Source of the DNA: a virus
Reading direction: 5' to 3' (one strand)
Virus record (IMG/VR): IMGVR_UViG_3300036046_000377
Span: 1 to 37,119 of that record
DNA length: 37,119 nt
Of the stretch, positions 2,470-37,119 are shown piece after piece. Position 1 is the first letter of the stretch. Each line of letters opens with the position of its first letter. Position numbers and translations under genes: made by a program. Below the pieces are notes generated by a model. That model was not told the origin of the DNA, did no database searches, and saw only the letters and a list, made by a program, of their open reading frames with translations.

Positions 2470-3579
2470 ATGACCGTACGACTCACGCCCGACCTACTCG
2501 CCGCAGTGGACCGCTCCCGCGCCGCGGGCACCCACTTCGGCCTCCGAACATCCAACGCCGACGGGACCAGCTACAGCGGTTTCCAATGGCCGGCGGCGGG
2601 CGGAGAGGCCGTCGCGCCGGATTGGAGGTCTGACGCGACGTGCGGCGGCGGACTCCACTACCTACCGCGGGGGGAGGGGAATGCAGCCTTACTGCGTACG
2701 AGCGCGGATGCCTTGTGGCAGGTGGTCGAAATTGACTCCGCGAACGAAGTCCGTATTGACTCCGATAAGGCGAAGTGCCTGACGTGCCACGTCGTCTACG
2801 CCGGCACTCGCGACACCGCGACGGCGTTAATTGCGACTCGACACCCCGAAGCCGCATGCGCGTACGGCACCGCGAAGGCGGGCGACCACGGCACCGCGAC
2901 GGCGGGCGACGAGGGCACCGCGATGGCGGGTGACCACGGCACCGCGACGGCGGGCGCCGCAGGCACCGCGACGGCGGGCGACTACGGCACCGCGACGGCG
3001 GGCGACTACGGCACCGTGACGGCGGGCGTCCACGGCACCGCGACGGCGGGCGACTACGGCACCGCGACGGCGGGCGCCGCGGGCACCGCGACGGCGGGCG
3101 ACCGCGGCACCGCGACGGCGGGCTACGACGGCACCGCGAAGGCGGGCTACGGCGGCACCGCGACGGCGGGTTATGCCGGCACCGCGACGGCGGGCGACGC
3201 GGGCACCGCGACGGCGGGCGCCGCGGGCACCGCGACGGCGGGCGTCCACGGCACCGCGAAGGCGGGCGACCACGGCACCGCGACGGCGGGCGACCGCGGC
3301 ACCGCGACGGCGGGCGACTACGGCACCGTGACGGCGGGCGTCCACGGCACCGCGAAGGCGGGCGACCACGGCACCGCGACGGCGGGCGACCGCGGCACCG
3401 CGACGGCGGGCGACCGCGGCACCGCGACGGCGGGCTACGGCGGCACGCTGATTATTACCCACTACGACCGTGCGGCGAATCGCAGACTCGTCGCCGTGGC
3501 CTACGTCGGGGAAGGGGGAATTGAACCTAACCAACCCTATCGACTAAACGTCGCCGGTAAGTTCACCCCCGCCATCTAG
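2470..3579 (+). CDS. Octapeptide-repeat beta-solenoid protein with N-terminal globular domain, copy 2 (24 repeats)
   Basis: A 369-residue protein behind AGGGGGG. Residues 1-130 form a globular domain with the segment ATCGGGLHYLPRG, a Cys-Gly-Gly-Leu-His feature that resembles the N-terminal domains found ahead of octapeptide repeats in other phage proteins (DUF7666-like; recognition from memory). Residues 136-327 are 24 octads of TAGxxGTA type with T-A-T ladders; four octads replace the first T by K. Residues 328-369 are the same cap as in copy 1 (VAYVGEGGIEPNQPYRL). Two octads per coil would give 12 solenoid coils. Function unknown. The gene is last in its operon and is followed by a strong terminator 24 nt downstream. 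Confidence 0.78.
   Translation: MTVRLTPDLLAAVDRSRAAGTHFGLRTSNADGTSYSGFQWPAAGGEAVAPDWRSDATCGGGLHYLPRGEGNAALLRTSADALWQVVEIDSANEVRIDSDKAKCLTCHVVYAGTRDTATALIATRHPEAACAYGTAKAGDHGTATAGDEGTAMAGDHGTATAGAAGTATAGDYGTATAGDYGTVTAGVHGTATAGDYGTATAGAAGTATAGDRGTATAGYDGTAKAGYGGTATAGYAGTATAGDAGTATAGAAGTATAGVHGTAKAGDHGTATAGDRGTATAGDYGTVTAGVHGTAKAGDHGTATAGDRGTATAGDRGTATAGYGGTLIITHYDRAANRRLVAVAYVGEGGIEPNQPYRLNVAGKFTPAI
2875..3450 (+). repeat. 24-bp tandem repeat array coding 24 octapeptides
   Basis: Twenty-four in-frame 24-bp units with the same 18-nt core and variable hexamer as the array at 435-890. A three-octad block (VH, then K-bearing DH, then DR) occurs twice within the array (octads 16-18 and 20-22). A run of AA-DY-DY-VH octads is shared with the first array. 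Both point to unit duplication and exchange between arrays. Confidence 0.95.
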
Positions 3580-3654: not shown

Positions 3655-3671
3655 CCGAACCGGCCGGCACC

Positions 3672-3678
<7 letters not shown>
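3655..3678. repeat. 9-bp perfect inverted repeat at the edge of the att region
   Basis: CCGAACCGG at 3655-3663 and CCGGTTCGG at 3670-3678 flank the 6-nt spacer CCGGCA. The right arm overlaps the anticodon-loop end of the tRNA-Pro fragment. Inverted arms about a 6-8 bp overlap are the layout of tyrosine-recombinase core sites, but the left side does not match a tRNA anticodon stem, so its role is uncertain. Confidence 0.5.
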
Positions 3679-3715
<37 letters not shown>

Positions 3716-3768
3716 TTGGTGAAAGTACTCCCGCGGCACCTTCCGGGGCACGGAATGGGCAGCGAACC

Positions 3769-14581: not shown

Positions 14582-15058
14582 TCACTTTTGTACCGTGCCC
14601 ACGGGGTCCGTACCACCTCCGTTAGCTCGCCGTATTCGCTCCATCGCGCGGTGACGACACCGGCACACCGCGACGCGGGAAATGCCGAGTTGCGACGCAA
14701 TCTCCCGATCCGTATAGCCCTGCCGCCGGAGGGTGACCACCGCCCGCTGCCGGCGGGTGAGTACCTCGCCGAGTCGATCCCAATCCGGCCCGGTATCTGG
14801 CGGCGGGGCTTCGTAGGCCTCGACATGGGCCTCGACATGCCGGCGGCGGCACGTCCGCTCTTGTGACACGTACCGCGTCGCGCCGGCGAACCCGGCGGCG
14901 AGGGCGGCGTCTTCGCCCGCTCCACTCGCCGCGGAGGCGAGATACGCGACGTACGCGGCTTGCGACACGTCGTCAGAATCAAGCCGGTATCTGCGCGACA
15001 AGTTTTCGGCACGCTGCCGCAACTTCGTGTAGACTTGACCGGGTGCATCGGGTAGCAT
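14582..15058 (-). CDS. Sigma-70-family-like protein with region 4 helix-turn-helix
   Basis: A 158-residue protein beginning at the ATG at 15058. Residues 20-40 (SRRYRLDSDDVSQAAYVAYLA) resemble the region 2 core helix that binds RNA polymerase. The C-terminal part is a clear sigma region 4: LTRRQRAVVTLRRQGYTDREIASQLGISRVAV, with a helix-turn-helix that would contact a -35 element, followed by a basic helix (CRCRHRAMERIRRA). It is short, like ECF sigma factors or phage late activators. Its 5' end overlaps the upstream sigma-like gene by 80 nt. It is a candidate to read the unusual promoter motif found upstream of the late genes. Confidence 0.72.
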   Translation of the reverse strand: MLPDAPGQVYTKLRQRAENLSRRYRLDSDDVSQAAYVAYLASAASGAGEDAALAAGFAGATRYVSQERTCRRRHVEAHVEAYEAPPPDTGPDWDRLGEVLTRRQRAVVTLRRQGYTDREIASQLGISRVAVCRCRHRAMERIRRANGGGTDPVGTVQK

Positions 15059-15575
15059 TCTGGAGCTGATTCCAAGACTCGCCGGCGGCGAAGCCGGCGA
15101 TAATGCGGCGGTGCGTGGGGCCGCGGGAGCCGAGACGCGTGAGAACGTGGGAGACGAAGTCGGCGGAGTCCACGGCCGCGATGCCACCGTCGTCGGGGGC
15201 GACCGCCTCAGTCAGTGCCGTCGCGTTGCCGGGGGTGAGCGGTTCGGACGCGTGGACGGTGTCCGGATACGCGGCAAAAGCGCAGTTCGTGCGCGTCGCC
15301 GAGTCGCCATATCGGACCCCGATGACGCCGGTGTTGGACCCGTTGCGCAGCCCCGCAATCATCGCCCGCGGCACCTCCCACCACAGCCACGGCCCTACAG
15401 GACGATCCGCCGGCCGGTGCGGGAGGCGAGTTAGCAGCGCGAGCCAAACGTCTTGCTCCGCGTCTTCGCGGCTGACGTACATCCGCAACAGGCGGCGACA
15501 GATTGAGGAGGAGCGGAGAATCGTGCGGATCGTCGGCAGCAGCGACTCAAGGCTCGGCGTAGAGGTCGTGGTCAC
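14979..15575 (-). CDS. Sigma-factor-like protein, first gene of the replication operon
   Basis: A 198-residue protein starting at a GTG (15575) behind GGGGGA. Residues 30-75 (RMYVSREDAEQDVWLALLTRLPH) carry the acidic DAxQDVWLAL helix of sigma region 2, and RPVGPWLWWEVPRAMI fits the following Trp-rich part. The C-terminal third (LTRLGSRGPTHRRIIAGFAAGESWNQLQNATRCTRSSLHE, counted in segments) resembles a degenerate region 4 helix-turn-helix. The whole is ECF-sized. Two overlapping sigma-like genes in a row are unusual. As the first gene it would be made early, then could redirect host polymerase. Confidence 0.62.
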   Translation of the reverse strand: MTTTSTPSLESLLPTIRTILRSSSICRRLLRMYVSREDAEQDVWLALLTRLPHRPADRPVGPWLWWEVPRAMIAGLRNGSNTGVIGVRYGDSATRTNCAFAAYPDTVHASEPLTPGNATALTEAVAPDDGGIAAVDSADFVSHVLTRLGSRGPTHRRIIAGFAAGESWNQLQNATRCTRSSLHEVAAACRKLVAQIPA

Positions 15576-15585
15576 GTTGTCCCCC

Positions 15586-15621
15586 GTGTAGCAGTTGTAT
15601 AGGCGATTCTATACGGTGTAT
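15586..15621. promoter_or_regulatory. Divergent promoter/operator with repeated half-sites
   Basis: Between the divergent sigma-like and RHH genes are four related hexamers: GTGTAG (15586), GTATAG (15597), its inverted partner CTATAC (15609) and GTGTAT (15616). The centre is a perfect 6-bp inverted repeat with a 6-nt spacer. Spacing of 11-12 nt between half-sites suits ribbon-helix-helix dimers bound side by side. TTGTAT (15595-15600) and TGTATG (15617-15622) could be the -35 and -10 boxes for the RHH gene, so repressor binding would overlap the promoter. Confidence 0.6.
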
Positions 15622-15663
15622 GGGGGATTACAATGTCCGTTGGCGGTAAGTGGAGGGTTTACG

Positions 15664-15999
15664 ATGAAAGGGAGGCAACTCAACGTCCGCGTCACGCCGG
15701 AGGAGCGATTGCGGATTGAAGCGAGGGCGCAAGCGGAAGGGGTTAGGGTAGCTACGTGGGTTAGGCAGATTGTAGTAGATGCGCTGAGTGCGCCGGATGT
15801 AGCGAATCTGACGGGTCAATCCGCCTCCGTCACCTTGCCGGTCGCCGGATCGCTTAGGATCGCTTTAGAGACGCTATCTCGCCGGGTAGGGGTCTCGGTC
15901 GCCGAGGTCGCTTTGAGGGCCGTAGACGCGGGCCTAGAGGCCTTAGCGGCCGACGTGGCGGAAACGGAGCGCCGCCGGGCTGCGGCGGCCGGCGAATGA
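15664..15999 (+). CDS. Ribbon-helix-helix transcriptional regulator (Arc/MetJ-type)
   Basis: A 111-residue protein starting at the ATG at 15664, 6 nt after GGAGGG. The N-terminal MKGRQLNVRVTPEE is a ribbon strand followed by two helices (ERLRIEARAQAEG, VATWVRQIVVDAL), the Arc-type ribbon-helix-helix fold that binds DNA as a dimer through the strand. The second half (SVTLPVAGSLRIALETLSRR, VSVAEVALRAVDAGLEAL) shows a similar strand-helix-helix rhythm and may be a second, degenerate copy. The gene diverges from the replication operon across a control region with inverted-repeat half-sites, the position expected of a phage repressor or early switch. Confidence 0.75.
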   Translation: MKGRQLNVRVTPEERLRIEARAQAEGVRVATWVRQIVVDALSAPDVANLTGQSASVTLPVAGSLRIALETLSRRVGVSVAEVALRAVDAGLEALAADVAETERRRAAAAGE

Positions 16000-16214: not shown

Positions 16215-16251
16215 CACCGCAGCGGGCATGCCTCACCCGCTGCGGTGTTTT
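16215..16251 (+). terminator. Intrinsic terminator upstream of terminase genes
   Basis: A perfect 12-bp stem (CACCGCAGCGGG at 16215-16226 with its complement at 16236-16247), a 9-nt loop CATGCCTCA and TTTT. It would end transcripts from the repressor gene or the AT-rich island and insulate the late promoter that starts 6 nt downstream. Confidence 0.85.
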
Positions 16252-16256
16252 CACCC

Positions 16257-16286
16257 GCGTAACGTTTCGCCGGCGTTTCGCGGCTA
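16257..16286 (+). promoter_or_regulatory. Candidate phage late promoter, copy 1
   Basis: GCGTAACGTTTCG (16257-16269), exactly 12 nt, then GGCTA (16282-16286). The GTG of the small terminase gene begins 9 nt after the end of GGCTA, and there is no Shine-Dalgarno sequence. The same bipartite motif with the same 12-nt gap occurs at 24433 and 36861. Confidence 0.7.
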
Positions 16287-16294
16287 TTGTTGTA

Positions 16295-16720
16295 GTGGCC
16301 GCCATCACTCCCGTACCCGGAGACTCGCAGCATAAACGTAGCTCCATGCGTTTACTCGCCGTCGCGGTCGCGGCCGGCCAGTCGGCTAACAAGGCGGCAT
16401 CCGCGGCGGGGATCAAACCCTCCACCGCCCGCAAGTGGGCGCGCGAGCCGGCCTTCCGCCGCATGGTCGGCGCGTATCAGACGCGAGCTATTCGACGCGC
16501 CCTCGCGATCATGGTCCGCGGCGCGGTGCGCGCCGCCGCGAAGTTGTACGAACTCGCGAAACACGACGATCCGAAAATTGCTCTCGCCGCTTCGCGTGCG
16601 ATCTTGGAACTCGGCCCCCGACTGCGCGACGACTTGGACCGCGAGCAACGTTTGATCGCGATTGAAGACCGGCTAGCCACCGCCGCGCCGCTGACATGCC
16701 TACCGTCGCCAGCCGCTTAG
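16295..16720 (+). CDS. Terminase small subunit-like, helix-turn-helix DNA-binding protein
   Basis: A 141-residue helical protein directly before the large terminase. Residues about 25-50 (AVAAGQSANKAASAAGIKPSTARKW) form the helix-turn-helix typical of small terminases that recognise the packaging site; the rest (RAIRRALAIMVRGAVRAAAKLYELA, then DDLDREQRLIAIEDRL) is a helical oligomerisation region. It would form a ring that selects phage DNA and hands it to the large subunit. The GTG at 16295 fits the late-promoter geometry; an ATG at 16346 is the alternative. No ribosome-binding sequence precedes either. It overlaps the large subunit gene by 25 nt. Confidence 0.78.
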   Translation: MAAITPVPGDSQHKRSSMRLLAVAVAAGQSANKAASAAGIKPSTARKWAREPAFRRMVGAYQTRAIRRALAIMVRGAVRAAAKLYELAKHDDPKIALAASRAILELGPRLRDDLDREQRLIAIEDRLATAAPLTCLPSPAA

Positions 16721-18159
16721 CGGCGATTGAATCGCGGACCTCCGCTCCGACGCCCCGCCCCGACCTGTTTCAATACCGCGGCCGGCCGGCGGAGTACATC
16801 CGCGAGTACCTGCGCCAATCCCTCACCCCACAACAGGCGGACGTATGCGCCGCCGTTGCGGCGGGCCGGCGGCTCGTGTTAGTGCCGTCGGGTAACGAAG
16901 TTGGCAAGACCTGGCTCGCCGCCGGTTTAACGTCGTGGAACTACGACGCCTACCGGCCCGGCTTAACGCTGACCACCGCGCCGACGGCGGTACAGGTCGG
17001 CGACTTGCTATGGGCGGAGCTTCGCCGCCTCCGCGGGCCGGACGCCGGGTTCCTGCCGCGGGCGAACTACCTCGGCGACGCGCCGGATCATTACGTTCGC
17101 GGCTACACGGCGCGTGACGCGACGGCGTTTCAGGGTCGGCACGGCGTACGCGTGTTGGTGATATTCGACGAAGCGGAGGGGATCGACGCAGCGTTTTGGG
17201 ACGCCGCGTTGTCGATGGCGGATCAACTGGTCGCGTTCTACAACCCGACCACCACCGGCAGTCAAGCCGCGGTTGAAGAGCGGCGAACCGGTAACGAAGT
17301 GGTGCGGCTATCCGCGCTGGATCATCCAAACATCACCGCCGGCTTACTCCGTCAACCGCTTCCCTACCCATCCGCCGTGACCCTTGACAAGGTGTCAGAT
17401 CGGCTCGCCCGCTGGGCGACACGTCTCGCCCCCGCTGAGCACCTTCAACCCGGCGACGTGACGCTCGCCGGCGTCGCGTGGCGGCCCGGCCCCGTGGCAG
17501 AGGCTCGCATACTCGGCCGTCGGCCTAGCGTTGCCGTAAATAGCTTATTCGGCTTGCACTTATGGCAATCCGTCGAATCGACGCATCTAGATATCCAACC
17601 ACATTGGCCGGCGCAAGTGGGATGCGACGTAGCGCGTTACGGTGACGACTTCACGGAAATTATCGCTCGCCGTGGGCCGTGTGTCGTGTTGCACGAAGCG
17701 CACAACGGTTGGTCAACGACTCAGACCGCCGCTCGCCTCCGCGCCGTTGCCGCGGAGGTGGCTGGCGATACTGACCCTCGGCGCATCCCCATCGTCATCG
17801 ATGATACCGGCGTCGGCGGCGGCGTCACGGATCAACACTGCGGATTTCGTTTTATCGGTGTGAACTTCGCGAGCAAAGCGCCGAACGCCGACGAATACCC
17901 CGATACGCGGTCGCAGCTATATTTCGATCTTGCCACGCTCGCCACCGCCGGCCATATCGACGTGTCGCGGCTGCCGGCGGAGTCTCGCGAGCAATTGCGC
18001 CAACAACTCACCGCGATTATGTATACGCTGGACTTGCGCGGCCGCCGGCGTATTGAGCCGAAGCGCGACATGAAAGCGCGGCTCGGCCGTTCCCCCGACA
18101 CCGCCGACGCGTTGGCGTTGGCGTTCTTTCAATTCCCCGACGTGTTTGAGAAGGTCTAA
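16696..18159 (+). CDS. Terminase large subunit
   Basis: A 487-residue packaging motor. The ATPase half has Walker A VPSGNEVGKTW (residues 63-73) and Walker B VLVIFDEAEGI (153-163, catalytic Glu159). The nuclease half has the RNase H-fold acidic residues Asp311 (GCDVARYGDD), Asp369/Asp370 (IVIDDTGVGGG) and Asp471 (PDTADALALAFF). It would cut concatemeric phage DNA and pump it through the portal. Both active sites are complete. The ATG overlaps the end of the small subunit gene. Confidence 0.95.
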   Translation: MPTVASRLAAIESRTSAPTPRPDLFQYRGRPAEYIREYLRQSLTPQQADVCAAVAAGRRLVLVPSGNEVGKTWLAAGLTSWNYDAYRPGLTLTTAPTAVQVGDLLWAELRRLRGPDAGFLPRANYLGDAPDHYVRGYTARDATAFQGRHGVRVLVIFDEAEGIDAAFWDAALSMADQLVAFYNPTTTGSQAAVEERRTGNEVVRLSALDHPNITAGLLRQPLPYPSAVTLDKVSDRLARWATRLAPAEHLQPGDVTLAGVAWRPGPVAEARILGRRPSVAVNSLFGLHLWQSVESTHLDIQPHWPAQVGCDVARYGDDFTEIIARRGPCVVLHEAHNGWSTTQTAARLRAVAAEVAGDTDPRRIPIVIDDTGVGGGVTDQHCGFRFIGVNFASKAPNADEYPDTRSQLYFDLATLATAGHIDVSRLPAESREQLRQQLTAIMYTLDLRGRRRIEPKRDMKARLGRSPDTADALALAFFQFPDVFEKV

Positions 18160-21372: not shown

Positions 21373-24345
21373 TTGCCTGAGACGCGCGAATCGTACCCCG
21401 ACTACTTCCACAGCCTGACCAGCCCCTACGCCGAGCCGCGCGACGCGTTCGCCGACGTGGCTTGGGGCTTGTCCGGCAATTGGTTTTTCCCGCCGCCGTT
21501 GTACGTGGATTCGACGAAGCGCGGCGAAGCGCTCCCGATCTACACGACGGAGGCGCAGTTGAAGGTCATCCGCGACCGCAACCGCCGGCTGGTTGCGGAG
21601 AACGAATTCGCCCGATGCGTCGTCGACACGCGCATCGCGTTCATCGTTGGGACCGGCTTCACCTACGAAGCCGCGGCGGTCGGTGTGGGAGTTGATCCGC
21701 GGCTCCTCGCCGACGTGCAGCGCGTGATTGACACCTTTGCCGCGGCGAACCACCTGCCCGCGCGGGAGGCGGAGGCGCAGCGGCGGCTAGACCGCGACGG
21801 GGAGTACTTTCTCCGCCTCTTCCCGCGCCCGTCCGGCCTACTCGCCGTGCGGTTCGTTGAACCGGAACACGTCAAAGCGCCGGCGGGGGAGTGGACGCCG
21901 GCGCGTTCTTTCGGCGTTGAAACTGACCCGCGAGACGTGGAGTCTGTGACGGGTTACTGGGTTGTTGATTGCCCCACGGAGAACACCGCGCCGGAGCTAG
22001 TCGCGGCGGACAACATCATCCACGTTCGCGCAAACGTCGATTGGTCGGCGAAGCGGGGGCTGCCGTTGCTCTATCCGGTGGAACCGAACCTCCGCCGCAT
22101 CGAAGAGCTACTCGCCTCTATGTCCACCGCCGCGAAGGCGCGGGCGAAAATCGCGATGATCCGCCGGCTTGACGGCCCGAACCGGTCGGCGGCGGACAAG
22201 ATGGCCGCGTCACTCGCCGACGGGCAGACTGCCGACCCGGCGACGGGCACGGCGACGAATATCGAACGGTTGCGGTTCGGTACCATCCTCACCGCGTCGA
22301 AGAATCTTGACTACGAATTCCCCGACGCCGGCGTCAACGCGGCGGACACCGTTGCCGTGCTGCAGGCGGAACTCCGCGCCGTCGCGGCGGCGGTGATGAT
22401 GCCGGAATTCATGTTGTCCGCCGACGCGTCCAACGCGAACTACAGCAGTACCCTTGTCGCCGAATCGCCGTCGGTGCGGAACTTCGAACGTCTCCAACGC
22501 ATCCACGCCGACACCTTCGCGCAATCCGCCGGCTCCCTGTTGTGGCGACAGATTCGCGAGTGTGTGACGGTCGGCGTCTTGCCGGCGGAGGCGTTGACGC
22601 AAGTGCGCCTCCACGGCGTCGGGCCGCCGCTCACGGTGCGGGATCGGGATAAAGAGGCGACTATGAACGCGGCGTACATCAACGCCGGTGTGAAGTCGCG
22701 CCGCACCGTCGCGACGGAATTGGGACTCGACTTCGACGAAGAGGCTCGCAACATCGCCGCGGAGCGTGCGCCGGCCGAGCCGGCCCCGACCACGGAAGTG
22801 GTAGACGACGCCGGGCATAAGCACGGGGCTGACGGTAAGTTTAGCAGCTCAAGCGGCGGCTCGGCGGCCGGGCCCGACGACTTGCCGGGCGGTGCGACGA
22901 TTAAGCCGAGTGAGCATGGCGTCGGGTTGTACGTGCCCGGAAAGCGCAAGCCGATTTTGCAAGCGGAGGATCGCGAGTCATTGTTGCGAATGGCTGCGCG
23001 AATGACGACGCCGGCGCACGGCGACGGGCTGCGCGGGTTGATAGCTCGCCACACCGCCGACGCGTCGAAGGGTAAAGGCGCGGACGACAACTTTCGCGTC
23101 GGCGACAAGACGGTCAGTCGGGCGGAGTTGATTAAGGCGCAGCGTGACCACCTAGCGCAGGCGGAGGATAGCTACGGCCGGCCGATTCCGAAGGTCGGCG
23201 ACGAAGTTAGTAAGCTCGCCTTTGTGTCGGCTCGGCAGCGGTCGGGCGACGCGCCGCCGCCGCGCATGGTCGGGACGTTGGAAGTTGAGCCGGACGGCCT
23301 CCACGTCGTCGCGGTGAAGGCAATAATCGGCGGCACGGTCCGCGGCGTGAAGGTCGGCGACCGCGCCCCCTACAAGGCGGATTGGCGCGTCGCGTCGCCC
23401 ACCACGGAAGAAACGGTAGTCGGCCGTGATTCGTTGGGCCGGAAGTACAAGGCCGTCGATGGCAATCGCGTTCCGCCGGGCGACGCGGAGAAGCCGAAGG
23501 CGGAGAAGCCGGACATCACAAAGCCGGTGACCGACAAGGCCCCTTCGCTCGCCGAACGGCAGCGGCTAAGCCTCCGCGCTCAAGTTTCGTCATGGCTTAG
23601 CCGGCACGACGGCCCGCCCGGCCGCGAGGCTCGGCTTGAGATGTATGACGGGCTGATTGACGGGGAATTGGAGGGGTCCCTCGGCAATCACGAAGGCGGC
23701 GCGTCCGGCAAGGCTGCCCGTGATTTGCTTATGGAGGCAGTCGGCGCGGCCTTGTTCGGCGGTAAGTTGACCGGCGGGTCGGGGTCACCGGACGATATTA
23801 ACGTCGGGCACGTGTACGAAAAGCTGGAGGGGCAACCTAGGCTGTTAATCGATATCAAGCGATACCTATGGGACTCCTCCGGCCGCGCTCGCGGACACCA
23901 CGGCGCGAAGGATTTAATTGACAAGCTGGAAAACCTCAACGATGATTGCTACGCGCAAGTCGCGATCATCCCGCCGGGTCGGGGTAAGCCGGGGAAGATT
24001 GTTGCGCGGTTTGGGGTGAAGTCTCTTTCGGACACGAACGGCGTCGTCCTGGCGGAGGGGTTTTCTTCGATTCGGGATGTACTTGCCGACCCGGCGCGGT
24101 ATAATGATTTGAAGCGGCGTTACGAGGCGTTCCGGGACTCCCTCACGCCGGAAAGGTGGGCGCAGGTGCGAGAAGAAACGCAAGACACGAAGGCTGACAT
24201 CGCGGCAAACCTCGCGAAGACGTTGGAGGGGAAGGCCGCGGCGAAAGTCGCGGCGGCGCTGCCGAAGGAGTCGCTGCTGGCGGCGACGGCGGAGTCGCTA
24301 GGCGTGTCGGTGGAACAATTGAAAGCGATGCGCAAGAAAAAGTAG
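21373..24345 (+). CDS. Portal protein with long C-terminal extension of unknown function
   Basis: A 990-residue protein beginning with TTG (GGAG upstream). Residues 1-480 are a phage portal: LVAENEFARCVVDTRIAFI, DGEYFLRLFPRPSG, VRFVEPEHVKAP, DNIIHVRANVDWSAKRGLP, and the clip/stem region MMPEFMLSADASNANYS. It would form the dodecameric DNA gate at one capsid vertex. A His/Gly/Ser-rich linker (HKHGADGKFSSSS, about 484-496) joins an extension as large as the portal itself. This has a Lys/Pro hinge (EKPKAEKPDITKP) and a domain near 740-910 with Asp807/Asp808 and Asp827-x-Lys829 (LLIDIKRY), which resembles a PD-(D/E)XK nuclease core. Portals are usually 400-600 residues. Confidence 0.85.
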   Translation: MPETRESYPDYFHSLTSPYAEPRDAFADVAWGLSGNWFFPPPLYVDSTKRGEALPIYTTEAQLKVIRDRNRRLVAENEFARCVVDTRIAFIVGTGFTYEAAAVGVGVDPRLLADVQRVIDTFAAANHLPAREAEAQRRLDRDGEYFLRLFPRPSGLLAVRFVEPEHVKAPAGEWTPARSFGVETDPRDVESVTGYWVVDCPTENTAPELVAADNIIHVRANVDWSAKRGLPLLYPVEPNLRRIEELLASMSTAAKARAKIAMIRRLDGPNRSAADKMAASLADGQTADPATGTATNIERLRFGTILTASKNLDYEFPDAGVNAADTVAVLQAELRAVAAAVMMPEFMLSADASNANYSSTLVAESPSVRNFERLQRIHADTFAQSAGSLLWRQIRECVTVGVLPAEALTQVRLHGVGPPLTVRDRDKEATMNAAYINAGVKSRRTVATELGLDFDEEARNIAAERAPAEPAPTTEVVDDAGHKHGADGKFSSSSGGSAAGPDDLPGGATIKPSEHGVGLYVPGKRKPILQAEDRESLLRMAARMTTPAHGDGLRGLIARHTADASKGKGADDNFRVGDKTVSRAELIKAQRDHLAQAEDSYGRPIPKVGDEVSKLAFVSARQRSGDAPPPRMVGTLEVEPDGLHVVAVKAIIGGTVRGVKVGDRAPYKADWRVASPTTEETVVGRDSLGRKYKAVDGNRVPPGDAEKPKAEKPDITKPVTDKAPSLAERQRLSLRAQVSSWLSRHDGPPGREARLEMYDGLIDGELEGSLGNHEGGASGKAARDLLMEAVGAALFGGKLTGGSGSPDDINVGHVYEKLEGQPRLLIDIKRYLWDSSGRARGHHGAKDLIDKLENLNDDCYAQVAIIPPGRGKPGKIVARFGVKSLSDTNGVVLAEGFSSIRDVLADPARYNDLKRRYEAFRDSLTPERWAQVREETQDTKADIAANLAKTLEGKAAAKVAAALPKESLLAATAESLGVSVEQLKAMRKKK

Positions 24346-24399
24346 CAGCGGTTCGCTGCTACGGTCCGCGGCCCGGCGAGTCGCTTCGCCGGGCCGTTT
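24342..24399 (+). terminator. Two tandem hairpins between portal and protease genes
   Basis: Hairpin 1 pairs 24342-24350 with 24354-24362 (GTAGCAGCG, loop GTT) and includes the portal stop codon. Hairpin 2 pairs 24369-24379 with 24386-24396 (CGGCCCGGCGA, loop GTCGCT) and is followed by TTTCG. The short T run makes termination partial or processing-related rather than certain. A late-promoter motif follows at 24433. Confidence 0.6.
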
Positions 24400-24432: not shown

Positions 24433-24462
24433 GCGTTACGTTTCGACCGCGGCCGACGGCTA
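24433..24462 (+). promoter_or_regulatory. Candidate phage late promoter, copy 2
   Basis: GCGTTACGTTTCG (24433-24445), exactly 12 nt, then GGCTA (24458-24462). The ATG of the protease gene begins 8 nt after GGCTA (an in-frame GTG begins 5 nt after it). No Shine-Dalgarno sequence is present. Motif and spacing are shared with 16257 and 36861. Confidence 0.72.
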
Positions 24463-24469
24463 GGTAGTG

Positions 24470-25489
24470 ATGGCCGTCCGTCCCGTCCGCGCCCGTGAAT
24501 CCGTTCCCGTAGGCGACCCCCGCATCGACACGGAAGCCGCCGTCGTCTACGGCGTTAAAGTGCTCGGCTTCACGTCGCAGAACGGTCGTGAATATCCCCG
24601 CGCCGTATGTGAAGCGGCCGCGCCGCTTTACGACGGCGCGATTGTCCGGCTAGACCACGGCGGTCGGTCGGTTCTTTCTACGTTTGGCCGTATCCACGGG
24701 CCGACGGTGCGCGACGACGGTCTGTACGCCGCGGAACTTCGCTATAATCCGGGGCACGCGTTCGCTAAGGCCTTCGAATGGGCCGTGCGACACGACCCCC
24801 GCTCTATCGGCTTATCTCACGACGCGCTAGTGCGATATACGGACGCATCGCAGACCACCGCCGCGGAGATTGTCCGCGTCCTGTCGGTCGATCTTGTCTC
24901 CTCCCCCGCGACTACCGCCGGAGTTTTTGAAAACGTAATGGACGAATCCGCACTCACCCTCGACTCTCCCGGCGATGCGTCGGCCGCGGCGGACGCCGCT
25001 CCGGCCGACACCGCTGACGCGATTGGCAAGCTGGTCCTATCGATCATCAACGACGACGAACTAGACGCCGCGGCCAAGCGGAAGAAGGTTCTCGCCGCGT
25101 TGAAGCTGCTAGACGACGAAGGTGACGCGCCGGCCGACACCGGCGATGCGCCGGCCGACTCCGCGCCGGCCGCCGAATCGTTGGCGCGGGAAGTCGCGGA
25201 CCTCCGCGCCATCGTCGACGCCTTCCGGACCCGCGAGCGGCTCGCCGCGGAGACGGAGCGGAACCGCGAGCGGTGCCGTACCGCCGGCCTGCCCGCCGCC
25301 GCCGTGTCCGACGTGTTTCTGTCCACCCTGGTCGGCCGGACCGCGGAGGATGTTAATCGCCTCATCGCGGATCGCCGAACCATCACCCTCGCCGGCCGCG
25401 TCGCGTCGCCGGTATCGGCGGTGCCGACTAATACCGGCGACCGCATGACCCTTGACGCGTTCGTATCCGCCGCTCTCACCGGGAAGTAA
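24470..25489 (+). CDS. Prohead protease fused to scaffold-like region
   Basis: A 339-residue protein. The N-terminal 160 residues look like a capsid maturation protease: VKVLGFTSQNGREYPRAVCE, then GAIVRLDHGG (His of the active site), GLSHDALVRY and IVRVLSVDLVSSPATTAGVFE, a segment typical of phage head-maturation proteases. Residues 160-260 are Ala/Asp-rich and low in complexity, followed by a coiled helix (SLAREVADLRAIVDAF, RTRERLAAETERNRERC), as in scaffolds made as protease fusions. It would assemble inside the prohead and cut itself and other head proteins. The ATG at 24470 is preferred because it fits the promoter-to-start spacing of the other two motif copies. Confidence 0.8.
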   Translation: MAVRPVRARESVPVGDPRIDTEAAVVYGVKVLGFTSQNGREYPRAVCEAAAPLYDGAIVRLDHGGRSVLSTFGRIHGPTVRDDGLYAAELRYNPGHAFAKAFEWAVRHDPRSIGLSHDALVRYTDASQTTAAEIVRVLSVDLVSSPATTAGVFENVMDESALTLDSPGDASAAADAAPADTADAIGKLVLSIINDDELDAAAKRKKVLAALKLLDDEGDAPADTGDAPADSAPAAESLAREVADLRAIVDAFRTRERLAAETERNRERCRTAGLPAAAVSDVFLSTLVGRTAEDVNRLIADRRTITLAGRVASPVSAVPTNTGDRMTLDAFVSAALTGK

Positions 25490-34876: not shown

Positions 34877-36891
34877 CCGACAACGACACGGTCAGACGGA
34901 TTCTAGACCGGATCGCGGCGTCGGGAATCAGGATACCGCCGCCGCGCCGAGCCGGCGAACCTCGACCGCCCCGCGAGATAGGTCCGTCTCCGCCTGCATC
35001 ACCGAACCGGCGACCTGCGCCCGGCCCGCGACACACCCCGTGCCGGCACCTCGGTGACGCGATCGGGCACCACGACCGCCGGCGTATCTGCCTCTACGAC
35101 GGTGACGACCGCGATTGGGATTATGCGGTCGAACAATGCACCTGCGCTAGGGCTCGGCGGCGGCTCGCGGCGGAGTCGCTGCAGCTCTGCAGCGAATGCC
35201 CCGCCAATGTGCCGCCGTGGCCGTTCCCCGCGCATCGGGGGTTGACTTCGGCCGCGCTGCGGGAGTACCTATCCCACGGCGACCCGCTGCCCTACGGCTG
35301 GACCGGCTGGTCGGTAACGCGGCGAGTTATGCCGGCGCTGGCGGCCGACGTACTCGCCGCGTGCCCCCCACCACCGGCCACGTTCGACGCTGACGCGGGC
35401 GTCGTCACTGCCGGCGGCGGGCGGTACGACGCGTCGCTGTACGTGTCCTTATCGATGCTCCGCGACACCGGATGCACGCTGCCCGTCCGGCTGTACCACC
35501 GCGGCGAGGAGGAGCCGGTATCCGGTGCGGTGCGGGCCATCCCCGGCGTAGAGACAATCGACTGTACCCCCTGGCGAGACTCATCCCGCCAGTGGGGCGG
35601 CTGGCAGGTGAAGATTGCGACGGTCATGCGGAGCGGCTTCCGGCGCGTGTTGTTTCTGGACGCCGACGCCTACCCGGTAACGGACCCGACGGCGTGGATC
35701 GACACCGTCGCCGACCCCGCGCCGCCCGTCGTGATATGGCCGGACGGCGCGTCTGGCGGCGGAACGGGGCGATACCGGCCAGACAGCTACGGCCTCGACG
35801 CCGACGCGGGCCGCCGCGTCCCGGCGATTAACGGTGGTCACTACATCATCGACGTGCCGCGGGCGTGGCGGGCGTTGTGGTTGCATCATCACTTCGACAT
35901 GCATAGCGACTACTACTATGCCTACAAGATGGGCGTCGGCGGGTACGGCGACCAAGACCAGATGCGAGCGGCGTTGACGCTGACCGGAACCCCCTTCACG
36001 CGATTCGCCGCTGCGCCGCTGAGCCTTGACCGCGGCGTTTGGATACAGGCCGGCCCCGACGGCGTCACGCCGGGCATCGCCCATCGCGTCCGGGCGAAGT
36101 TCGGGCCGGTGAACGGGCACGGTCAAACGGCGTTCGGCACGCCGATCGTCCGTCACAACGCCGCGCCGGGGGAAGCGGCGGCGCACCGCCATTACGCCGA
36201 GTGGGGCCGGCTAACGGGGGCGGTCCGCCCGCGGCCGGCCCCGCCGGCGTTGCGGACGGACCCGCCGGCGGACTGGTCGGCGCGGAATAACGGTTGGGAC
36301 GGGCGGCACTGGGCGGAAGTTGTGCGACGCGATTGCTACGGACTGCGCGGGACCGATATGGCGGGGTGGACGGTGGTGGACGTGGGGGCGAATATCGGCA
36401 CCTTCGCCTACGTCGCGTGCGCCAACGGGGCGGCGGTGGTGCACTGCTACGAGCCGGAGGCGGGGAACTACTTCCACCTCGAGCGCAACGCCGCTCTCTT
36501 GCCGGGCGTGGCGTGCTTCCGCGCCGCGGTCACCGCTTGCAACGGGTGGGTGAAAGTTATGCCCGACCCCGTTACGCCGGGGAATGTCGGCGCGTTTCGC
36601 ACGGTGCCCGGCGGCAACGTGCCGGGGGTAGGAATCAATGAAGCGATTGATCGGGCCGGCGGGTGGGTTGACTTGCTCAAACTCGACTGCGAGGGCAGCG
36701 AAGCGGAGATACTCGCCGCGTGCGACTTGTCCCGCGTCGGCCGCGTCGTTTTGGAGTGGCACCCGCCACACGACCCGGACGCACTCGCCGACCGGCTCAC
36801 CGCCGCCGGCTTCACGGTATCCCCGTACTCGGCGGCCCCACAAGCCGTCATGCACGCCACGCGTTACGTTTCGCCTTCCCCCGCCGGCTAG
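34873..36891 (+). CDS. Glycosyltransferase fused to FkbM-family methyltransferase, with N-terminal Cys cluster
   Basis: A 672-residue protein; the GTG at 34873 overlaps the previous stop. Residues 50-115 hold six cysteines (57, 73, 89, 91, 106, 109) in a possible zinc module (CTCARARRRL, LCSECP). Residues about 160-420 resemble a nucleotide-sugar glycosyltransferase: YDASLYVSLSMLRDTG, VLFLDADAYPVTDPTAWID (DxD at 263-265), then NGGHYIIDVPRAW and GYGDQDQMRAAL. Residues 495-665 are an FkbM-type SAM methyltransferase: VVDVGANIGTFAYVA (Asp503), HCYEPEAGNYFHLERN, LLKLDCEGSEAEIL (Asp605, Glu607) and VVLEWHPPH. The pair would add and O-methylate a sugar on a virion protein or host glycan. A late-promoter motif lies inside its 3' end. 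Confidence 0.8.
   Translation: MTDNDTVRRILDRIAASGIRIPPPRRAGEPRPPREIGPSPPASPNRRPAPGPRHTPCRHLGDAIGHHDRRRICLYDGDDRDWDYAVEQCTCARARRRLAAESLQLCSECPANVPPWPFPAHRGLTSAALREYLSHGDPLPYGWTGWSVTRRVMPALAADVLAACPPPPATFDADAGVVTAGGGRYDASLYVSLSMLRDTGCTLPVRLYHRGEEEPVSGAVRAIPGVETIDCTPWRDSSRQWGGWQVKIATVMRSGFRRVLFLDADAYPVTDPTAWIDTVADPAPPVVIWPDGASGGGTGRYRPDSYGLDADAGRRVPAINGGHYIIDVPRAWRALWLHHHFDMHSDYYYAYKMGVGGYGDQDQMRAALTLTGTPFTRFAAAPLSLDRGVWIQAGPDGVTPGIAHRVRAKFGPVNGHGQTAFGTPIVRHNAAPGEAAAHRHYAEWGRLTGAVRPRPAPPALRTDPPADWSARNNGWDGRHWAEVVRRDCYGLRGTDMAGWTVVDVGANIGTFAYVACANGAAVVHCYEPEAGNYFHLERNAALLPGVACFRAAVTACNGWVKVMPDPVTPGNVGAFRTVPGGNVPGVGINEAIDRAGGWVDLLKLDCEGSEAEILAACDLSRVGRVVLEWHPPHDPDALADRLTAAGFTVSPYSAAPQAVMHATRYVSPSPAG
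36861..36890 (+). promoter_or_regulatory. Candidate phage late promoter, copy 3
   Basis: GCGTTACGTTTCG (36861-36873), exactly 12 nt, then GGCTA (36886-36890), embedded in the last codons of the glycosyltransferase gene. The GTG of the membrane protein gene begins 8 nt after GGCTA. Its presence inside coding DNA argues that it marks a new transcription unit. Confidence 0.7.
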
Positions 36892-36897
36892 GGGGTA

Positions 36898-37119
36898 GTG
36901 GGTTGGCTCCTCTCCTTGGCGGCGTTTGCCGCGTCGTGGATACTCGCGCCGCCGGGCGACCGTTTTTGGGAAGGATTCAGCTACGGCGGCCTGGTGGTCG
37001 GCGGCGTTTGGTTGGGGTTATACCTCTTGGAGCGGTCTAACTTGCGATTGGCGGACATCGCCCTCCTCGCCGTCGGCGGTTGGTTGTTTGTGTCCGCGGC
37101 GGGCGGGGGTTCGCCCACC
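36898..37119 (+). CDS. Small membrane protein, partial (holin-like size and layout)
   Basis: The frame opens with GTG at 36898 and runs without a stop for 74 codons to the end of the window. The visible part has three hydrophobic segments: LLSLAAFAASWILAP (residues 4-18), GGLVVGGVWLGLYLL (about 31-45) and IALLAVGGWLFVSAAGG (55-71), with charged turns between. Multi-pass small proteins at the end of late operons are often holins, and no other lysis gene is seen, but this is inference. There is no Shine-Dalgarno sequence; the start lies 8 nt after the third late-promoter motif, suggesting a leaderless message. Confidence 0.6.
   Translation, partial: MGWLLSLAAFAASWILAPPGDRFWEGFSYGGLVVGGVWLGLYLLERSNLRLADIALLAVGGWLFVSAAGGGSPT

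Follow-up and report, generated by a model that had tools for sequence, protein, structure and literature searches.

Three copies of a two-part motif as candidate late promoters for a phage-encoded ECF-like sigma factor in an uncultivated phage

A two-part motif was found at three places, each directly before a late gene, in the genome of an uncultivated phage (IMG/VR record IMGVR_UViG_3300036046_000377; 37,119 bases, G+C 0.67), which was analysed over its whole length and is referred to here as the window. In the reading that we favour, and hold to be reasonably probable, the three sites are phage late promoters read by a phage ECF-like sigma factor that is made early, with transcripts starting at or near the start codons. 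Taken by its parts, the motif is very likely a late promoter, its activity being judged from the DNA sequence, and this promoter is probably served by an ECF-like sigma factor of the phage itself. A few model phages are known to encode a sigma factor with late promoters of its own. The phages of the present group, in which a sigma factor is predicted together with its binding sites, probably infect Planctomycetota, a phylum rich in ECF sigma factors without known use. They offer predicted sigma-promoter pairs and a possible replacement of sigma factor and promoter inside one phage group, and the late genes of this phage are natural candidates for leaderless transcription.

The genome has a leftward early operon, with genes for a family A DNA polymerase, primase/helicase-like and exonuclease-like proteins and a helicase, headed by two sigma-like genes, and a rightward late region that runs from the small terminase through the tail genes. 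An Arc/NikA-like gene (15664-15999), on the strand opposite to the early operon, adjoins the first motif copy. The sites and the neighbouring late features are the following:

16257-16286, + strand: candidate late promoter, copy 1; -35-like CGTAAC (16258-16263), N17, -10-like CGGCTA (16281-16286)
24433-24462, + strand: candidate late promoter, copy 2; -35-like CGTTAC (24434-24439), N17, -10-like CGGCTA (24457-24462)
36861-36890, + strand: candidate late promoter, copy 3; -35-like CGTTAC (36862-36867), N17, -10-like CGGCTA (36885-36890)
16215-16247, + strand: terminator-like hairpin just 5' of copy 1; the region folds at -28.9 kcal/mol and is followed by TTTT
24342-24362 and 24368-24397, + strand: two hairpins in the portal-protease gap, just 5' of copy 2 (-15.0 and -27.5 kcal/mol)
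16295-16720, + strand: small terminase-like HTH gene, with weak PHROG terminase small subunit matches, directly before TerL; putative first gene of late unit 1
16696-18159, + strand: large terminase, TerL (phrog_2, E 9e-21)
24467-25489, + strand: putative prohead protease, so assigned by its position between portal and capsid and aligned with protease-position proteins of relatives; start GTG 24467 or ATG 24470; putative first gene of late unit 2
36898-37119, + strand: hydrophobic last gene, GTG start, recognized from its sequence; it extends beyond the record end

The original prediction of GCGTWACGTTTCG-N12-GGCTA at 16257, 24433 and 36861 was borne out, since a scan of the window allowing up to 3 mismatches returned exactly these three copies, all on the + (late) strand, and no further match, against a chance expectation of 0.13, and none of 100 shuffles reached three. 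In a weighted scan of the window, the score fell from 37.2 for the three copies to 20.7 for the runner-up site; the window is therefore without half-decayed copies. Moreover, the 12-mer CGTWACGTTTCG appeared at the three motif places only, even when one mismatch was allowed, and as this first block never stands alone, the two blocks are suggested to act as a unit. Positions 0 and 25 of the alignment were C in all three copies, so that the motif is better written as CGCGTWACGTTTCG-N11-CGGCTA, with CGGCTA as second block and 11 free bases; the predicted spacer of unrelated sequence was thus right in its constant length, but not in its 12 nt. Expressed as -35 and -10 elements, the layout of every copy is CGTWAC-N17-CGGCTA, and the upstream invariant block spans 14 nt. 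A blind comparison of upstream regions placed the pair formed by the protease and the last gene best of 666 pairs, above all 400 shuffled controls. The three copies are therefore real, and chance is excluded. The hexamer GTAGTG also follows the second block in all three, at a distance that varies, and was left out of the motif.

The copies lie directly before the first terminase gene, the prohead protease and the last gene, as had been claimed, and it also held that copy 3 overlaps the end of the preceding gene's coding sequence and that folding places two copies just 3' of hairpins (16215-16247 and 24342-24397). Since copies 1 and 2 directly follow terminator-like hairpins, each would open a new transcription unit. 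The start codons are indeed close, although the predicted gap of 8-9 nt after GGCTA was recounted as 8, 7 and 7 bases between CGGCTA and GTG 16295, ATG 24470 and GTG 36898, respectively. The eighth base past CGGCTA, the expected start point, is a purine in each copy (A, A and G in copies 1, 2 and 3), and the predicted starts are A 16294, one base ahead of the TerS GTG, and the first bases of the protease ATG (A 24470) and of the GTG of the last gene (G 36898). A promoter is thus favoured by three copies only, on one strand, 7-8 nt before start codons, with purine starts and with terminators before two of them. A role other than promoter is improbable, whether as a repeat arisen by chance or as an RNA- or DNA-processing signal such as a translation element or a site for packaging or recombination. 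It would suit a motif so short and copies so few, but the window scans exclude chance, and neither packaging nor recombination accounts as well as transcription starts do for the free spacer, the upstream terminators and the placement ahead of three separate late units; a hairpin of the motif's own is neither seen nor needed.

Leaderless or near-leaderless late mRNAs are plausible, as they fit this geometry. The Shine-Dalgarno argument for them is weak: the contrast originally drawn stands in that most early genes have such a sequence, but it is modest, since about half of the late genes have none (TerL, 18455, MCP, 27455 and 32741 among them) and copy 3 has a G-run, GGGGG, three bases ahead of the GTG (duplex -5.2 kcal/mol).

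ECF sigma promoters are described with AAC at -35 and CGT at -10 (PMC8103513), AAC being present in two-thirds of them (PMC4598750). The phage motif is similar to those of ECF (group 4) in having its elements 17 bp apart, (A/T)AC in the -35 and a -10 starting with CG, and the N17 of all three copies agrees with the ECF spacing of about 16-17 bp; spacing and element sequences close to the published AAC/CGT pattern thus speak for a promoter. Against it, AAC is found in copy 1 only, with TAC in copies 2 and 3, and the -10 element has CGG instead of CGT in every copy, so the claim is one of ECF-type-like function, not of a textbook ECF promoter. The 14-nt invariant upstream block is also unusually long compared with ECF promoters. 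It exceeds a -35 hexamer and contains a near-palindromic 12-mer (CG-TW-ACGT-TT-CG) in which 8 of the 12 core positions are palindromic, and because of this near-palindrome some weight, albeit a small one, is left to host polymerase aided by a phage activator, which would bind over the -35 with CGGCTA as a poor -10. The phage does encode other small DNA-binding proteins, one of them Arc/NikA-like; however, it also has sigma-like genes, a sigma gene and a repeated motif recur together in relatives, and CGTWAC lies exactly at the site expected for sigma region 4, about -35 to -30, which makes an activator unlikely.

The candidates for the sigma factor and their own promoter are located as follows:

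14582-15187, - strand: P0002, ECF-like sigma factor candidate with a region 2-like part and region 4; an ATG at 15058 is possible
14979-15575, - strand: P0003, the other sigma-like protein, whose region 2 match is below the Pfam cut-off; it heads the leftward early operon
15606-15633, - strand: sigma-70-like early promoter TTGTAA-16-TAGAAT ahead of P0003, with an inverted repeat (15597-15614) overlapping it

For P0002, the Sigma70 region 4 match was above the Pfam cut-off, residues 68-177 were colinear with an ECF-type sigma factor of a Gemmataceae genome (38% identity), and many of the best structural matches of its low-confidence model were ECF sigma factors aligned over most of its length (no E-value <0.02), all of which suggests a sigma factor. 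Its region 2 was visible only via profile and structure alignments, a SigE-fam match (53-189) being below the cut-off, and the list of matches that includes the Gemmataceae sigma factor also contains response regulators, which makes region 4 by itself unspecific. P0003 has a sub-threshold match, and its model has a mean pLDDT of 43; in the searches run, this neighbour of P0002 came out as sigma-like, not as an anti-sigma factor. Close viral relatives of P0002 and P0003 were not found. Like ECF sigma factors (PMC8103513, PMC4598750), the candidate would have two domains only, but those are cellular regulators, usually with an anti-sigma factor, whereas here a phage gene would serve late genes. 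The assignment of P0002 and P0003 to the late motif is proposed from their presence and position.

In the proposed mechanism, host RNA polymerase would bind the three sites with a phage ECF-like sigma factor, for which P0002 is the likeliest candidate, perhaps acting with P0003; CGTWAC(GTTTCG) would be the -35 element and, at a spacing of 17 bp, CGGCTA the -10 element. RNA would start at the start codon or within one base of it, giving terminase, protease and last-gene mRNAs with no leader or almost none. Early transcription of the sigma genes would start from the sigma-70-like leftward promoter, so that late transcription would wait for early protein synthesis, and the order would run from host sigma factor to the early operon with the phage sigma factor and then to the late promoters; both the start point and this time order are deduced from sequence.

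The inverted repeat GTATAG-N6-CTATAC (15597-15614) is perfect, covers the early promoter, with the sigma-like genes on one side and the Arc-like gene on the other, and is a candidate lysogeny operator, perhaps that of the Arc-like protein. It bears on a further explanation, according to which the motif is a repressor operator, for instance of the Arc-like protein (15664-15999), silencing late genes in the lysogen over ordinary weak promoters. The near-palindromic block, the Arc-like gene adjoining copy 1 and the integrase of a probably temperate phage would agree with it, but the early control region is devoid of the motif and has this palindrome of its own, and a repressor site alone leaves unexplained a fixed CGGCTA 7-8 nt from three start codons, so we regard it as very improbable. 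Because the early promoter has a separate palindrome, binding of the motif by the Arc-like protein was judged less likely.

Returning to the sigma-dependent late promoters, other phages offer two comparisons. As with gp55 of T4 (PMC1524935), a phage-encoded sigma factor, here predicted, would redirect host polymerase to late genes; the T4 late promoter is a single element, TATAAATA at -13 to -6, while the window's motif has two, including the invariant 14-nt upstream block where the T4 type has no conserved -35. The giant phage AR9 (PMC5312081) likewise has a phage-specific late consensus, from which the purine start keeps a constant distance, but it transcribes with its own multisubunit RNA polymerase, of which none was found among the proteins searched here, and its leaders are 26-491 nt long, as opposed to the leaderless or near-leaderless mRNAs predicted for the window.

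The host is probably a Gemmata-like bacterium (Gemmataceae), since proviruses with close terminases were found in members of that group, as were the attachment-site bases. An integrase gene makes it probable that the phage is temperate, and the likely attachment site is a tRNA-Pro(CGG) 3' half next to this gene (about 3669-3717), although 46 identical bases were found in Gemmataceae, Pirellulales and Acidobacteria genomes alike, so the tRNA attachment site by itself was undecisive for the host. Rfam and tRNA searches of the window gave no match. Terminase relatives were absent from the scan of genome contigs, and some were found by a separate genome search. The terminases of the Gemmataceae proviruses are about 38-44% identical to those of the phage, the other structural genes of the set being absent or different:

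G037:C1:3636868, G032:C2:973967 and G032:C20:213852 (L285, L286, L293): Gemmataceae proviruses with related terminases

Two 24-base tandem arrays (424-886 and 2864-3446, with 19 and 24 copies) lie within genes of the window and encode an eight-residue GTATAG-type protein repeat.

Across 95 Gemmataceae genomes, the motif gave 3 matches at up to 2 mismatches, against 8 for the reversed control; it is not enriched in this candidate host DNA, and so is not a host regulon site in these genomes. The exact motif was not found in other viral contigs, and only scattered matches of chance quality were returned by 20 relative contigs (up to 3 mismatches), about 70 further relatives (up to 4) and the Gemmataceae proviruses (up to 5). 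The motif is known from a single phage, in three copies, and was shared by none of the relatives, which counts against the promoter reading. No motif clearly repeated upstream of genes emerged from the closest terminase relatives (G001, G002, G519, G520 and G521); GGTTTCG...GTACTA before the G519 protease has a weak likeness and was dropped for its single copy and wrong spacing.

Relatives were collected as phages whose terminase, portal, protease, decoration and capsid proteins were about 25-50% identical to those of the window; the capsid protein of the group had no match in the sequenced-phage collection searched. In one branch of them, a sigma region 2 gene separates portal from protease, as at 4598-5170 of L009, and late genes, the portal and protease genes among them, are repeatedly preceded by GTCATTTA, in genomes with a G+C content from 0.38 to 0.66 (loci L004, L008, L009, for example at 3008 and 5184, L017, L075 and L326-L341 among others). 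Within 75 portal and protease loci, GTCATTTA was present on the late strand in 24 of the 29 with the sigma gene vs. 4 of the 46 without it, an association that the Fisher P-value of 6e-11 overstates because near-duplicate contigs were included. In the sigma group, 68 copies were on the late strand vs. 2 on the opposite one, and the five sigma-bearing loci without it were four of one near-identical group plus L392. The protease ATG often follows 5-7 bases after GTCATTTA, and the seventh base after it is most commonly A (23 of 35 dereplicated copies). A shared upstream block is absent, and GTCATTTA resembles the T4 element in size and position (-13 to -6), which makes it a candidate single-element late promoter of that type.

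Both branches therefore have a promoter-like element at the protease start codon, unlike in sequence and in sigma arrangement, and no other indirect evidence speaks as strongly for a promoter. The original idea of a phage-specific two-part promoter is accordingly kept as the best reading of the motif, given the ECF-like spacing, the sigma-like genes, the lack of enrichment in candidate host DNA and this sister lineage. More tentatively, and with somewhat less than even confidence, the phage group may keep the position of its late promoters (at start codons, with leaderless mRNAs) while swapping promoter sequence and sigma gene together: one branch would have the single-element GTCATTTA and a region-2-dominated sigma factor encoded beside the protease, and the window's branch a two-element ECF-type promoter and early-encoded ECF-like sigma factors.

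Finally, a closer relative, G518, shares with the phage the DNA polymerase (43%), primase and helicase, and has a sigma-like protein, P0010, near the DNA polymerase gene, both of whose Pfam matches are below the cut-off. Repeated TTGACA-N17-TACAAT-like sites precede several of its genes, and near-identical copies (L396-L398) stand before replication genes; they fit host-sigma promoters for early genes:

Before 3787, 5721, 9169 and 11474 (reversed record): promoter-like sites TTGACAT...GCGATACA(A/T)T of G518

A further three-copy motif, TCTGAGTTCGTNNGGTT, was observed in record G003 (L155) at 2086, 4122 and 13375, 15-44 nt before gene starts.
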